A DNA stretch of 49,497 nt from Candidatus Avelusimicrobium excrementipullorum (GTDB lineage: Bacteria > Elusimicrobiota > Elusimicrobia > Elusimicrobiales > Elusimicrobiaceae): NCBI GenBank assembly GCA_019120455.1, contig DWVB01000096.1, positions 1 to 49,497 on the forward strand. The letters are read 5' to 3'. The notes beneath the pieces were generated by a model. The model had not been told where the DNA came from and searched no databases. It was given only the letters and a program-made list of their open reading frames with translations. The translations under genes and the position numbers were made by a program. Shown piece after piece: positions 44,374-49,102 of this stretch (position 1 is its first letter; each line of letters starts with the position of its first letter).

Positions 44374-46020
44374 TTACGGCAGAGGCACAAACGGCGCGCG
44401 GTCCGGTTTGCGCTGCGTAGGCAAAATTTCTATCTCGTCCACCAGCACGGACGGGGCCACCACCGCAAAAGGAAGCATGGTGGAACTGTCCGTAAATACG
44501 GATACTTCTTCGTCTGCGCCCGCCGCCAACACATCCCGCAGGCTGCGCGTGGTTATGCCTTCCAAACGCAGGCCGTAGACGGGTTCTTTGCGTCCGTCAG
44601 CCGTATAAATGCGCCAGGCAAAACTCCCCTCCCCTTTACCGCCGTTAATGACGGGAAAACGCGGAAAAATATATCCGTATTCCAGCCCCAGCTCCCGGCA
44701 GCGGTCCAGCAGTTTTTGTTCCAGTTCTTCCTGCGTCAGGGACGTTTTCGGCACAAAAAACACATGGGTCAGCGCCGCGCGCGGGTATATCCAGCCGCTC
44801 ATGCGCGCGTGGCCGTTGCTTTGCTTCTGCCCCTCAATCAGACTGCGCACGGTGGGCAGGGCCAGCAGTTTGCCGCTTTGCACCAGTTGCAGCTCCTGCG
44901 CCGGCACGCCTTCATCGTCCAGCGGCGTAAACGCCGGCAAAGACCGGCCTTTATACTCCCGCAGCTGCGGCCGGTCATACACGTCCAGCAAATGGCTGAT
45001 GACGCGCATGCCCAGTTTGTCCTTAAACTGGCCGGCGGTGCCGTCCGTTTCCGCCTGGGCCGACAGCAAAGGCTTGGAATTATTGGCATTGCGTATAAAC
45101 AGCTGGTTGAAAAATCCGCCGGCGGCTTTGGGCTCCAGCAAAACGGGCCCCAAATAGGGCTCTGCTTTTTTGGCCTGATATATATCCTGCAGACGGGTCA
45201 AAAATTCTTCCGTTTCCGCACGCAGTTCTGCCGCGTCCGGCGTTTGGCCGCATTCCAGCGGAATATTATCCGTCAGGCTTTCCTGATAGCCGTCTTTATT
45301 GCGCAAGGAAGAAGAAAGTATCAGCGCGCAGGAAGGCTGGCTGTATTGATAAAAATCCCCCTCGCTGTCCAGAAAATAAATGTCCTGCTGCGCCAGGCGC
45401 AAAGAAGCACCGAAATTTTCCAAATAGGGCAGCCGTTTTCCCAGAGCCGAAAGTTCATTGACCAGCTGCTGGTATTGCTCCGCGTCCGCCTTTGGAAAAG
45501 GCATAATCTCCTCTACATAAGAAGCCTTGGGGGATTTTGAAAAATCCGGCAAATCGTCCGTTAGATTTTTCTGGCGTTTATAGGCCATTTTCTTTTCGTA
45601 GGAATCCCCCGCCGCCACATAGGCGCTGTCGGTCAGCCGCCACAGCATGCGGCGCAGCCCTTCATAACTGGCGGGGACGGACGAAGCCGACGCCGGACGG
45701 TAATAATACGCATTGTTTACAAAACCGGAGCTGTTGTTTTTGGCGTCTCCGGCATATGTATATACCGCCGCTTCCAGCAAGGTTTGGGGTTCCTCCCGCA
45801 CGGCATACGGCGCGCCGAACTGCGCCGAGAAATTTTGCGATGAGGAAGCAATCACTTTATAGGCCGTAAAATACGGCTTGGGGCTGCCCTTGACGCGCAA
45901 CTGCTTTTGGGTACGGCGCATTTCGTCATTCATCGCGCGGAAATACATATTATCCGGCAGCTGTGCCGCCCCCAGCGGCCAGGCCAGACAAATCAACAAA
46001 AGAAAGAAATATTTTTTCAT
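44374..46020 (-). CDS. Exported TldD/PmbA-family protein without metal motif
   Basis: A 548-aa protein with a signal peptide (FFLLLICLAWPLGAAQ). The C-terminal two thirds follow the TldD/PmbA fold: DGYQESLTDNIPLE, TAGQFKDKLGMRVIS, LREYKGRSLPAFTPLDDEGVPAQ and a late NGGKGEGSFAWRI stretch. At the place where TldD has HExxxH, this protein reads VLLEPKAAGGFFNQLF, so it cannot bind the zinc in the same way. It therefore resembles the inactive TldE/PmbA partner of the heterodimer. The start codon overlaps the stop of the next-upstream gene (TAATG), so the two are made together. The family is clear; the export is unusual. Confidence 0.82.
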   Translation of the reverse strand: MKKYFFLLLICLAWPLGAAQLPDNMYFRAMNDEMRRTQKQLRVKGSPKPYFTAYKVIASSSQNFSAQFGAPYAVREEPQTLLEAAVYTYAGDAKNNSSGFVNNAYYYRPASASSVPASYEGLRRMLWRLTDSAYVAAGDSYEKKMAYKRQKNLTDDLPDFSKSPKASYVEEIMPFPKADAEQYQQLVNELSALGKRLPYLENFGASLRLAQQDIYFLDSEGDFYQYSQPSCALILSSSLRNKDGYQESLTDNIPLECGQTPDAAELRAETEEFLTRLQDIYQAKKAEPYLGPVLLEPKAAGGFFNQLFIRNANNSKPLLSAQAETDGTAGQFKDKLGMRVISHLLDVYDRPQLREYKGRSLPAFTPLDDEGVPAQELQLVQSGKLLALPTVRSLIEGQKQSNGHARMSGWIYPRAALTHVFFVPKTSLTQEELEQKLLDRCRELGLEYGYIFPRFPVINGGKGEGSFAWRIYTADGRKEPVYGLRLEGITTRSLRDVLAAGADEEVSVFTDSSTMLPFAVVAPSVLVDEIEILPTQRKPDRAPFVPLP

Positions 46021-47717
46021 TATTTTCCCTCCTCTTCCGCGTCCGGCGCGGGCAGTACGGGCGGTTTAAAATCACTTTTTTGGGTTTTTTCCATTTCCAG
46101 ATTTTCAAACAGCAGGCTCGGCGCAATATTGCTTTGCGGCACCCAGCCCGACTCGGCTCCGCAGGAGCCGTTAAACAAGGTGTCGTCGTCCCCTGCCGCC
46201 AAAATTTTGTTAAAGCTCACCAGCGGCGTGCCGACTACGTCCAGTCCGCGCACCACCTCTTTATGTCCGTCCGGGTACACGCGCAACACCCGCTTGGCCT
46301 CCAGCTTAAAGCTCTGCGGCAGGCCGGTGCCCGTCAGCGTAAAACCGCCGCCCAGATCCTCTACGATAAACCCATACGGCTTGCCCTGGCGTTTGATTTC
46401 TTCCACCAGCATTTCTTCCAGTTTTTCATAGGGCACGGTTTGCGAGGCCGTGGCGCGGATAACACTCATGCGCGCTTCGGCGCGGCGGCCGGTTTGTTTG
46501 CGGCCGTGACCGTTGGAAACGGGGAACCCCTCTATGGGACTGCTTTGCATAAGGAAATTTTTTAGTACGCCGTTTTCTATCAACGTTACGGGGCGGGCCT
46601 TGACGCCTTCGTCATCGTATTCATAATGCCCGCGCAGGGGCTCTCCTTTAAACTGCGTCTGCGTCGGGTCGGCCGTAATGGTAATTAGCGGCGAAATGAC
46701 CTGCTGGCCCACCTTGCCGGCCAGGGTCTGCCCGTCGCCGGCGTTTTTCAGGCGGTATCCCTCCAGGCGGTGCCCCATGACCTCATGCACAAACACCGCC
46801 GCGGCGCGGCCCTTTAAAATGGTAGGGGCATTATACGGGTCCCCCTCCGGCGCATTGGACAGCTCTTCCAGTTCCCGCAGGGATTTGTCCACATCGGCCA
46901 GCAGTTTTTCGCGCGAAGGAAAATCCTGCGGGGAGAGTACGTCATAAATGCCGTCGCGGCTGATTTCTAATCCGTCTTTACTGCGGCCGGAAAACTGATA
47001 CGCCAGCCGGAAAAAAGAATACGGGGTTTTCAGGCGCGTACCGCGGCTGTCTGCAAAATAGCGGTGCCCCTGTTCGGCACTGACGGAAAAGGACGAAGTA
47101 AGCACAAAGTCCTTCCCGCGCGCCAAGCGGGAGGCCTCTTTGAGCATATCTTCATATTGTGTTAAATCTATTTCCTGTAATTTTTCCGTCCGGCAGTATG
47201 TTTCTTTGGGAGGAAATACAAAATCATCGGACTGGTCACGCACGGCCGCCATGGAACGCACATTGGACTGCACGCGGCTGAAATCCCGCTGGGCGTTTTC
47301 CGCCGCCTGCTGCGTGCCCTTCCACCAGGCCGTCAGAAACCCTTTGGGGTCGGACGGATCCGGCACGGGAGCGGACCAGACAGGCAGTTCCCAGTTTTCC
47401 CGTTCGCCGCGCAGGGCGCGGGTATTATCCAGTTTGGTGCTGCCGGCACGCGCCATTACCTCGGCGCTGGACACAGGCGTCACGCGTTTGACAGCCACTC
47501 CGTCATAGGCCACGCCCAGCACTGCGTCCTCTCCTTCTTTATAGGTATAAGAAAGATAATAAATAGGCGGATTTTGCTTTTTTAAGATTTTAAAACTGCG
47601 CGTCAGCTGCTGCTCCATTAATTTTAAAGGCAGCTCTTCTTCTATGGCACAATTCGGCGCCGCGGCAAACCCCAGCACGGGGCAGACCAGCGCCCATAAC
47701 AAAAAATATTTCTTCAT
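46020..47717 (-). CDS. Exported TldD/PmbA-family metalloprotease
   Basis: A 565-aa protein with a signal peptide (LLWALVCPVLGFAAAP). The metal motif HEVMGH (H311, E312, H316) sits in AVFVHEVMGHRLEG; the C-terminal TldD features follow: LRGHYEYDDEGVKARPVTLI, NGHGRKQTGRRAEARMS and LGGGFTLTGTG. Classic TldD works in the cytosol with TldE (PmbA) to trim unfolded peptides, for example microcin B17 and some modified peptides. Here both partners carry signal peptides, so a periplasmic TldD/TldE-like pair is likely. ATG 47717 has GGAGG 7 nt upstream; a GTG two codons earlier is less likely. Confidence 0.87.
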   Translation of the reverse strand: MKKYFLLWALVCPVLGFAAAPNCAIEEELPLKLMEQQLTRSFKILKKQNPPIYYLSYTYKEGEDAVLGVAYDGVAVKRVTPVSSAEVMARAGSTKLDNTRALRGERENWELPVWSAPVPDPSDPKGFLTAWWKGTQQAAENAQRDFSRVQSNVRSMAAVRDQSDDFVFPPKETYCRTEKLQEIDLTQYEDMLKEASRLARGKDFVLTSSFSVSAEQGHRYFADSRGTRLKTPYSFFRLAYQFSGRSKDGLEISRDGIYDVLSPQDFPSREKLLADVDKSLRELEELSNAPEGDPYNAPTILKGRAAAVFVHEVMGHRLEGYRLKNAGDGQTLAGKVGQQVISPLITITADPTQTQFKGEPLRGHYEYDDEGVKARPVTLIENGVLKNFLMQSSPIEGFPVSNGHGRKQTGRRAEARMSVIRATASQTVPYEKLEEMLVEEIKRQGKPYGFIVEDLGGGFTLTGTGLPQSFKLEAKRVLRVYPDGHKEVVRGLDVVGTPLVSFNKILAAGDDDTLFNGSCGAESGWVPQSNIAPSLLFENLEMEKTQKSDFKPPVLPAPDAEEEGK

Positions 47718-47769
47718 ACACACCCTCCGGCGGAATATATATTATTGTAGCACAATGCGGCGGGGCAAT

Positions 47770-47816: not shown

Positions 47817-47889
47817 GCCGAGATAGCTCAACTGGCAGAGCAACGGTTTTGTAAACCGTAGGTTGTGGGTTCGACTCCCATTCTCGGCT
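47817..47889 (+). tRNA. tRNA-Thr (anticodon UGU)
   Basis: A 73-nt cloverleaf. Acceptor GCCGAGA pairs with TCTCGGC; the D-arm contains AGCTCAACTGGCAGAGC; the anticodon stem ACGGT/ACCGT encloses TTTGTAA with anticodon TGT at 47850-47852, reading ACA and other ACN codons. The T-arm has GGTTCGACTCC. The discriminator is T889 in the same block (47889) and no CCA is encoded. The last 17 bases recur 180 bp downstream. Confidence 0.95.
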
Positions 47890-48086
47890 GTAATTTGTCC
47901 GCGCAGGCGGGCACGAGAAAGCGGGCAAACTGCTTTGCCCGCGTTGGGAGGCGAAGGCCGCAGTGATGTTTTTGTTTGAGGCCAAAGGCCGAAAGGCAAA
48001 AACCGCGAAGCCCGGCCCGAAGGAAAATCCCGTCAGGGATTTTACCGCAGGGGACTCCCATTCTCGGCTGTAATTTGTCCGCGCAG
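47873..48086 (+). repeat. Direct repeat of the tRNA-Thr tail enclosing three hairpins
   Basis: A 34-bp perfect direct repeat lies at 47873-47906 and 48053-48086, exactly 180 bp apart. It begins inside the T-loop of tRNA-Thr, covers its 3' end, and runs on into TAATTTGTCCGCGCAG. Similarity continues in weaker form for about 25 bp after each copy. The 146 bp between them hold three inverted repeats: 47921-47942 (9-bp stem, loop CTGC), 47968-48003 (7-bp outer stem with an inner GGCC/GGCC) and 48024-48043 (8-bp stem, loop GTCA). No gene is evident. This could be a small non-autonomous element using the tRNA 3' end as target, or a divergent tandem duplication. Confidence 0.75.
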
Positions 48087-48160
48087 ACGGACAAAACAAA
48101 GACGGGCACTGCTTTATCTCTTTTCGGCAGCCGTTTTCCACTTTTATTACCGGAGCGTCT

Positions 48161-49102
48161 ATGGAACCAGTTACCACCACCGTATCAGTTGCGATGTGGG
48201 TCGCCTTTTGGATTGTTGTATTAACCGCCCTATTTGTTGACCTGGCCGTGCTGAATAAGCACAAAGGCCATGTATCCATCAAAGAAGCCGCGCTGATGGT
48301 GACGGCATGGGTGTCTTTGGCCGCGCTGTTCGGCGGGGCCATTTGGCTTTTTGAAGGGCCGCGCCATGCGCTGGAGTTTTACACGGGATATATCCTGGAA
48401 TATTCCCTGTCTATAGACAACATGTTTGTTTTTATCATGATTTTCGGCTATTTCGCCGTACCGCACGATTTGCAGCCCAAAGTGCTGCTGTGGGGCATTT
48501 TGGGCGCGGTGGTCATGCGCTTTATCTTCATTTTCGTGGGCGTACAGCTGATTTCGGCCTTCTCCTGGATGATTTATGTATTCGGCGCGCTGCTGATTTT
48601 TACTGCCGCCAAAATGCTTTTGCAAAAAGAAGACGAAAAAATGGACCCAGGCAACTCGTTTATCTTAAAAGTTTTTAGGAAAATCATGCCCATCAAAACG
48701 GATTACCACGGCAACAACTTCTTTGTCAAAGAAAACGCCAAATGGTTCGCCACCCCGCTGTTTGCCGCGCTGCTGGTGATTGAAATGTCGGACGTGATTT
48801 TTGCCATAGACTCCATTCCCGCCGTGCTGGGCATTACGCGGGATACGTTTTTGGTATATTCCTCCAACATTTTTGCCATTATCGGGCTGCGCTCGCTGTA
48901 TTTCCTGCTTTCGGGCATGGCGGGGCGTTTTCCGTACCTCAAATACGGCATTTCCGTCATTTTATTCTTTGTGGGCGTAAAAATGCTGATTTCGCACCAT
49001 GTCAAAGTACCGGTGCCGCTGTCTTTGGGCGTCATCGTGTGCATTTTGGCCCTGTCCATCTTTGCCAGCAAGATTTTCCCGCCCAAAGAACAAGCCCATT
49101 AA
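48161..49102 (+). CDS. TerC/Alx-family membrane protein
   Basis: A 313-aa polytopic protein with about eight or nine helices. Family features include WIVVLTALFVDLAVLNKH, YTGYILEYSLSIDNMFVFI, with conserved Asp in SIDN, and the second repeat ALLVIEMSDVIFAIDSIPA. A charged cytosolic loop (QKEDEKMDPGNS) separates the halves. TerC/Alx proteins export manganese or support metalation of secreted proteins and respond to alkaline or tellurite stress. Many are preceded by a manganese riboswitch, but the leader here is only about 70 bp and shows no such fold. GGAG precedes ATG 48161. Confidence 0.92.
   Translation: MEPVTTTVSVAMWVAFWIVVLTALFVDLAVLNKHKGHVSIKEAALMVTAWVSLAALFGGAIWLFEGPRHALEFYTGYILEYSLSIDNMFVFIMIFGYFAVPHDLQPKVLLWGILGAVVMRFIFIFVGVQLISAFSWMIYVFGALLIFTAAKMLLQKEDEKMDPGNSFILKVFRKIMPIKTDYHGNNFFVKENAKWFATPLFAALLVIEMSDVIFAIDSIPAVLGITRDTFLVYSSNIFAIIGLRSLYFLLSGMAGRFPYLKYGISVILFFVGVKMLISHHVKVPVPLSLGVIVCILALSIFASKIFPPKEQAH

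Follow-up and report, generated by a model that had tools for sequence, protein, structure and literature searches.

A candidate gene-less element behind bacterial tRNA genes, with arms complementary to the tRNA tail

The tRNA-Thr gene (anticodon TGT) near the right end of the analysed DNA of Candidatus Avelusimicrobium excrementipullorum (49,497 nt, contig DWVB01000096.1, positions 1 to 49,497; hereafter the window) is followed by a repeat unit that is apparently a member of a large, undescribed family. This unit is probably a non-autonomous, protein-less element of about 140 nt, which is directed to tRNA tails and sits in tRNA T-loops. Its copies are linked to tRNA genes, end in a repeat of the tRNA tail, have empty counterparts at orthologous loci, carry arms matched to the locus, share a covarying structure, form tandem arrays and undergo core turnover. 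Mobility of the element is suggested by comparison of these sequences. As an RNA, it would probably be similar to the RtT RNA of Escherichia coli (Rfam RF00391).

The host tRNA gene (47817..47889, plus strand as all features of the locus below; ARAGORN; Rfam tRNA 71.5 bits) provides the target, i.e., its T-loop, T-stem and acceptor 3' half (nt 54-73). A direct repeat of 49 nt (47873-47921 and 48053-48101, 90% identity, spacing 180) begins in this target, and its opening 34 nt (47873-47906 and 48053-48086), which extend from T-loop nt 57 to 17 nt beyond the tRNA, are identical. The first copy of a terminator-like hairpin (47896..47913, recognized from the sequence) is followed by arm P0a (CGAGAA, 47914..47919), the reverse complement of the acceptor 3' strand at 47881-47886, by hairpin 1 (47920..47943, loop CTGC) and by arm X, or P0b (47945..47955), complementary to tRNA nt 54-64 (47870-47880) at 10/11 positions. 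The core then includes hairpin 2 (47963..48006), with a conserved outer stem and a variable inner stem, and hairpin 3 (48022..48046, loop region CGTCAG). The tRNA tail and the terminator-like hairpin return as the second copy of the target duplication (48053..48101).

The preliminary description of this DNA had reported a 34-bp perfect repeat starting in the T-loop of tRNA-Thr and reappearing 180 bp downstream, weaker similarity beyond it, and three inverted repeats without a gene in the intervening DNA. Sequence comparison and ARAGORN agree with the perfect repeat, the weaker similarity corresponds to its extension to 49 nt, and the inverted repeats are the three hairpins; no plausible gene is present between the tail copies in the list of open reading frames of the window, where only short mechanical frames overlap the unit. 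The complementarity to the tRNA tail on both sides of hairpin 1 is a feature absent from that description. The predicted RNA fold of 47911-48074 has a free energy of -73.7 kcal/mol (z -4.30; 0/200 shuffles as low) and is one closed structure, in which P0a and X both pair with the second tail copy, hairpin 1 branches between the arms, and hairpins 2 and 3 are enclosed.

Comparison of the unit with the 1.41-Mb draft genome by BLASTN gave five additional copies, four of which lie 27-53 nt behind a tRNA, the fifth being located at the start of a contig. The hosts are tRNA-Thr(CGT), tRNA-Ser(CGA), tRNA-Val(CAC) and tRNA-Arg(TCG), the copy behind the latter being decayed. The copies at Thr(TGT), Thr(CGT), Ser and Val finish in the tail of their own tRNA and the DNA beyond it; in the decayed copy at tRNA-Arg(TCG) the terminal own-tail repeat is not clear. 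Covariance model R1, built from five copies of this genome, found the six known copies and no others in it. Its only match in the window (47919..48059, plus strand, 156.3 bits, E 2e-37) is the copy described above; tRNA-Leu (506-590), the other tRNA of the window, is without a copy (ARAGORN, R1).

R1 matches are present in at least 80/90 genomes of the family (E<=1e-3), in all 6 genera, and in at least 111/294 genomes sampled across the phylum (E<=1e-6). Copies per family genome range from 0 to 24 among the matches listed; the 120 fetched regions were chosen mainly from well-assembled, copy-rich genomes, so that copy numbers are not those of a random sample. A pattern scan of named genomes yielded at least 118 stretches, mostly titled Elusimicrobiaceae or Elusimicrobium, together with records of Paceibacterota, Parcubacteria, Kaiserbacteria and Patescibacteria. 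The stretches of the Patescibacteria type were scored by R1 with E down to 2e-25, the six genomes reached through such non-Elusimicrobiota loci contained 1 to 16 R1 matches each, and in the Patescibacteria class containing the Kaiserbacteria genome at least 92/285 genomes had an R1 match (E<=1e-6). Rfam searches of the window and of loci with copies gave no family that fits the element; weak listings were below the gathering scores and were taken as chance. The titles and opening lines of abstracts returned by a literature search contained no description of this element family.

Linkage to tRNA genes was evaluated with 207 R1 matches on 148 fetched loci; several counts given below use subsets of these (full-length matches, matches with a tRNA found, or those with the T-loop GTTC[AG]A or the loop motif found). 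In 142/207 cases the match starts no more than 95 nt from the 3' end of a same-strand tRNA, usually about 40-55 nt past it, and the orientation is the same in 142/142. Later units of arrays that begin at a tRNA account for 52/207 matches, and altogether 194/207 copies are located directly behind a tRNA or in a tRNA-started array. The remaining ones are 4 matches at contig starts and 9 without a detected tRNA, several of which follow decayed tRNAs with only the 3' half left or a tRNA-Val without a T-arm. The host tRNAs of this set span 25 isoacceptors and 13 amino acids. In Patescibacteria, 25/34 distinct copies are directly behind a detected tRNA.

Several individual loci were recorded alongside these counts. 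The tRNA-Val(CAC) adjoining the match at 516-655 of L059 (genome G004) lacks the variable loop and the T-arm, as if they had been deleted at the insertion region. At L050, L058 and L121 only the 3' half of the upstream decayed tRNA is left, and arm X of the element still fits it at least partly. Locus L057, also of G004, carries a four-unit array with some partial units behind one tRNA-Arg(CCG). In Kaiserbacteria (L255/L358) the element follows a tRNA-Leu with a predicted 306-nt intron and a T-loop starting with TGC.

The arms correspond to the tRNA behind which the copy lies. A run of at least 9 nt of X complementary to nt 54-64 was found in 111/176 copies vs 326/4400 pairings with other tRNAs, and P0a is complementary to nt 65-72 over 7 nt or more in 32/176 copies vs 2/4400; swapped arm/target pairings were flat. 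For Patescibacteria, X of at least 9 nt was found in 16/25 copies vs 12/542 controls, with P0a being weak (8 nt in 2/25 vs 0/542). Unusual T-loops are also matched by the arms, namely TGCAAG behind the intron-bearing tRNA and GTCAGCACCC. X fits tRNA nt 56-64 better than the second tail copy does in 75 cases, equally in 34 and worse in 29 (n=138). In the copies inspected by eye, the break at which hairpin 1 stands is nearly constant (64/65).

In some Patescibacteria copies (L362, L363, L365, L384) the tRNA 3' end is folded back contiguously, and hairpin 1 and X are missing; in L363 the right repeat begins at the end point of the fold-back (GGACAC). Copies of the usual type have a fold-back reaching to nt 54, and their right repeat begins at nt 56. 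This offset of +2 is modal (35/131 copies in Elusimicrobiota, 6/19 in Patescibacteria), with an otherwise broad scatter, and suggests that one cut or switch point may fix both the fold-back end and the start of the right repeat.

In 114/173 copies the element end contains 10 nt or more in exact agreement with the tail of its own tRNA, vs 12/3460 pairings with tails of other amino acids. The right-hand repeat ends are scattered, the largest bin being 30-40 nt past the tRNA (17/60); a general stop in the loop of hairpin 1, suggested at first by a few copies, was considered and rejected, with only 4/57 ends within 3 nt of it.

Insertion polymorphism was followed at the locus of the window, where a TerC-family gene lies downstream of the element (48161-49102; Pfam TerC, E 1.4e-52). 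Within the genus this tRNA-Thr/terC arrangement is conserved (65/66 genomes have the terC piece), and an R1 match is present at 7/30 orthologous loci, one of these with two units; at most R1-negative loci the tRNA is directly followed by the gene leader. Locus L189, compared with the empty locus L194, has the inserted body bracketed by a 28-bp repeat (from nt 57 to a point 12 nt downstream of the tRNA). In sequence, this is an insertion with a 28-bp target duplication rather than a carried att site, because the duplicated DNA is native to the L189/L194 locus. Thus, insertion polymorphism and target duplication are combined at orthologous sites, as expected of mobile elements. At the same tRNA-Thr/terC spot, L188 (G018) contains a different insertion, bracketed by a direct repeat of the DNA just past the tRNA, without an R1 match. 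Upstream of the tRNA-Thr of the window, adjoining genes of PmbA/TldD-family metallopeptidases are located on the minus strand (44374-46020 and 46020-47723; Pfam PF19289).

Two possibilities had been raised in the preliminary description, a minimal non-autonomous element and a family of repeats associated with tRNA ends, and this view is borne out: the BLASTN copies follow different tRNAs, the copies usually finish in the tails of these different tRNAs, and orthologous loci without the element exist, so that a single-copy unit without a link to tRNAs is not what was found. Its comparison with the repeats left by ordinary integrase-type elements was not supported, since the repeat continues beyond the tRNA into DNA specific to the locus, and that picture has no place for the antisense arms.

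Covariation was analyzed in alignment A3 (92 matches, 86 distinct rows). Since A3 was fitted to the model and its rows are related, the following values lean upward: 94.7% of cells pair, 38/42 pairs have double changes, and double-changed cells number 622 vs 175 in column-shuffled alignments and 48-116 in slid versions. Covariation above both the column-shuffle and the slide controls is that of a structured RNA or single-stranded DNA. The stem of hairpin 1 has many compensatory changes among copies, and the stem of hairpin 3 covaries as well. In our judgement, the hairpin structure can be considered safe because of the effect size and the slide control.

Cores and arms differ in their behavior. 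Pairs of copies from one genome that stand at different tRNAs and have cores identical to at least 0.88 (36 pairs) gave 72 comparisons of X with its own tRNA and with that of the partner; the fit to its own was better, equal or worse in 69/2/1 cases. The alignments contain near-identical cores with different arms, and the stem of hairpin 1 differs in sequence yet stays complementary. In 40/67 comparisons, a core is more similar to its best paralogous counterpart than to the orthologous one. From the orthologous and paralogous comparisons together it follows that loci exchange cores, whereas their left arms can persist. A clean split of core identity by genome or by tRNA was sought and not obtained (0.696 for the same genome, 0.725 for the same tRNA, 0.685 for neither).

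Under the favored reading, insertion of the element would proceed as follows. Entry at T-loop nt 56/57 would keep the tRNA intact and duplicate its tail together with the DNA just beyond, giving the order tRNA, tail, terminator, P0a, hairpin 1, X, hairpin 2, hairpin 3, tail, terminator, where P0a and X represent the reverse complement of the host tail (nt 72-65 and 64-54) and hairpin 1 stands at the break. The unit may be transcribed and fold as a tRNA-like RNA whose arms pair with the tRNA tail, as in the E. coli RtT RNA. Pairing of the arms with the tail, either in the pre-tRNA or in an exposed DNA strand, could direct or template the insertion into the T-loop, and staggered-cut or copying synthesis would produce the duplicate tail. 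Arrays could then be built, and cores exchanged, through unequal recombination and gene conversion. The enzyme might be supplied in trans or be a housekeeping one.

Several observations weigh against a non-autonomous element directed to tRNA tails. Reverse transcriptase and Y1 transposase domains do not accompany it: RVT_1 is found in 14/90 and Y1_Tnp in 22/90 family genomes vs at least 80/90 with the element. No carrier of the element was found in phage, plasmid and viral collections at the sensitivity used. In many copies the P0a arm is weak, and some Patescibacteria forms have it contiguous or lack it. In L189, the cleanest new insertion, X fits at 9/11 positions and P0a does not fit, and a donor tRNA with the T-arm implied by this X was not found in 5 genomes, so that derivation of the slightly misfitting X from a present donor was rejected. 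In 36 orthologous pairs, hairpin 1 is more conserved than the core (identity 0.872 and 0.775, respectively), which weakens the idea of arms remade with each jump; the arms may stay at the locus while gene conversion swaps the cores. All counts given here are uncorrected for kinship, and the copies share ancestry.

As for the enzymes, reverse transcriptase was rejected as the driver, since RVT_1 does not track the element (in G004, with 24 copies among the matches listed, RVT_1 is not detected at E<=1e-5), and so was Y1 transposase of the REP/RAYT (repetitive extragenic palindromes and their associated tyrosine transposases) or IS200/IS605 type, since Y1_Tnp does not track it either. Copy-rich genomes such as G004, G005, G006, G008 and G010 have neither RVT_1 nor Y1_Tnp. 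The unit contains no integrase, and the carrier genomes were not searched for tyrosine recombinases.

Other explanations of the same anatomy have been weighed. A structured RNA of the RtT type could serve the host by acting on tRNA maturation or level, being mainly inherited vertically, sometimes lost, and having its arms kept by selection. The strong covariation, the better fit of X to nt 56-64 than that of the second tail copy, the presence in most family genomes and the anchoring of arms to loci are in agreement with such an RNA; we nevertheless regard it as rather unlikely, because 23/30 orthologous tRNA-Thr loci have no match, copy number varies over the range given above, targets are duplicated, decayed or partial copies occur, and near-identical cores stand at different tRNAs of one genome. 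Dedicated mobility could also be dispensed with if host polymerases performed fold-back or template-switch synthesis at tRNA terminators and the core was spread by gene conversion. In several copies the tail, terminator and P0a do form a continuous fold-back, the modal fold-back end is nt 54 with the right repeat starting at nt 56, neither a reverse transcriptase nor a Y1 gene tracks the element, and cores turn over while hairpin 1 stays. However, a homologous core with the same position and structure in two phyla asks for a more specific process, hairpin 1 keeps its nearly constant break in the copies inspected by eye, and this explanation is considered unlikely.

Classical site-specific integration would involve a non-autonomous element, a tyrosine recombinase acting in trans, and tail repeats representing attL and attR. 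A start in the T-loop and a tail repeat are what elements of this kind generally leave, and here, as in tRNA-targeting integrative elements, the tRNA 3' end is directly repeated with the tRNA remaining intact. A shared att core is not seen, however: the tail copies differ from tRNA to tRNA and reach locus-specific DNA (L189 vs empty L194). A single att core could not easily serve 25 isoacceptors, the antisense arms would be left unexplained, and the unit is devoid of an integrase. We therefore hold this route to be quite improbable. An assembly artefact or a chance repeat, for which the draft state of the genome (97 contigs) and the copy at a contig start could speak, is practically negligible: the preliminary description had named it as a risk, and against it stands the recurrence of this anatomy in two phyla and in many genomes that were assembled independently, as well as the RtT counterpart in complete E. 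coli genomes.

The element directed to tRNA tails might be given a further and more tentative interpretation, to which we attach limited credence: such elements could be self-retargeting, protein-less mobile RNAs or single-stranded DNAs, each insertion of which copies the tail of the new target in direct and inverted form. The arms would guide the choice of target or tRNA-like processing, and RtT of E. coli would be their unrecognised counterpart.

In the E. coli tyrT-tyrV region the tail copies are 178 bp apart, and the 178-bp repeat is present in 3.14 copies. As in the element, the tRNA-Tyr tail (nt 58-76) is directly repeated in tandem units, which contain a segment GGGGAAGGAT complementary to tail nt 59-68 in addition to a hairpin core; in the RF00391 model this GGGGAAGGAT segment is paired with the tail copy by the outer helix. 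All three features, a directly repeated tail, an antisense segment and an outer helix joining this segment to the tail copy, recur in the element. A second E. coli RtT locus lies behind tRNA-Pro, between eptB and dppA, and there the Pro tail is repeated and a shorter arm, GAGGAT, is complementary to it. Such an RtT unit behind tRNA-Pro was recorded at 1459-1592 of L397 (E. coli CKJ_1000_3.1). In one E. coli strain, 14 RtT units are annotated in the tyrT region. E. coli genomes contain RtT-related DNA at a median of 8 sites each, and further RtT copies linked to tRNAs or to bacterial interspersed mosaic elements (BIMEs) are therefore likely.

By analogy, the element is filed as belonging to the kind represented by RtT, i.e., structured, tandem-forming repeats that track tRNA tails. 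RF00391 has no match in 4 carrier genomes (E<=1) nor, with the limit raised to E 5, in five copy-bearing loci, and R1 has no match in 3 E. coli loci; since neither model finds the other family, this is a likeness of plan rather than shown kinship. RtT was found here at Tyr and Pro tRNAs only, in contrast to the 25 isoacceptors and two phyla of the element. One published account calls the rtT RNA a by-product of tyrT and places elements similar to it among the BIMEs (PMC2965389); in the portion of that paper drawn on here, RtT is not presented as a tRNA-matched mobile family. Partial accounts of related data include a covariation-supported helix and tandem GA in the RNA of the tyrT repeat (PMC8250186) and a 175-bp variable-number tandem repeat located at the rtT RNA (PMC2658671).

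REP and BIME sequences and repeats mobilised by RAYT are likewise small, protein-less, hairpin-bearing and dispersed in intergenic DNA. The element differs from them in its fixed place behind tRNAs, long target duplication and target-matched arms, and from RAYT-mobilised repeats also in that 68/90 genomes have no Y1_Tnp match. Genomic islands that target tRNAs similarly insert in the 3' part of the gene, produce a tail repeat (attL/attR) and leave the tRNA intact; the element, unlike them, is an integrase-less unit of about 140 bp with a locus-specific duplication past the tRNA and antisense arms. In the guide sequences of IS605-type elements, the bridge RNA of IS110 and the exon-binding sites of group II introns, a segment of the element pairs with the target. 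Here, by contrast, each tRNA has its own version of the pairing segment, the cleanest case shows a 28-bp duplication, and, unlike in IS605 and group II introns, no Y1 transposase or reverse transcriptase tracks the element. The tigRNA of TIGR-Tas is, in part of its published account, also a guide-bearing RNA, reported from phage and parasitic bacteria; as far as that part goes, the element differs in having no spacer array between fixed repeats and in guides that match the adjoining tRNA.

If the proposed reading is true, a tiny gene-less element would have a new way to find and inhabit safe sites, on the scale of 25 isoacceptors in two distant phyla at which the arms match the host tRNA. The 178-bp repeat of E. 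coli tyrT and the RtT RNA, the role of which has long been open, would gain a look-alike family for comparison. Two questions would thereby become testable: what copies the core, and whether the antisense arm acts on DNA, on the pre-tRNA or only within its own RNA.
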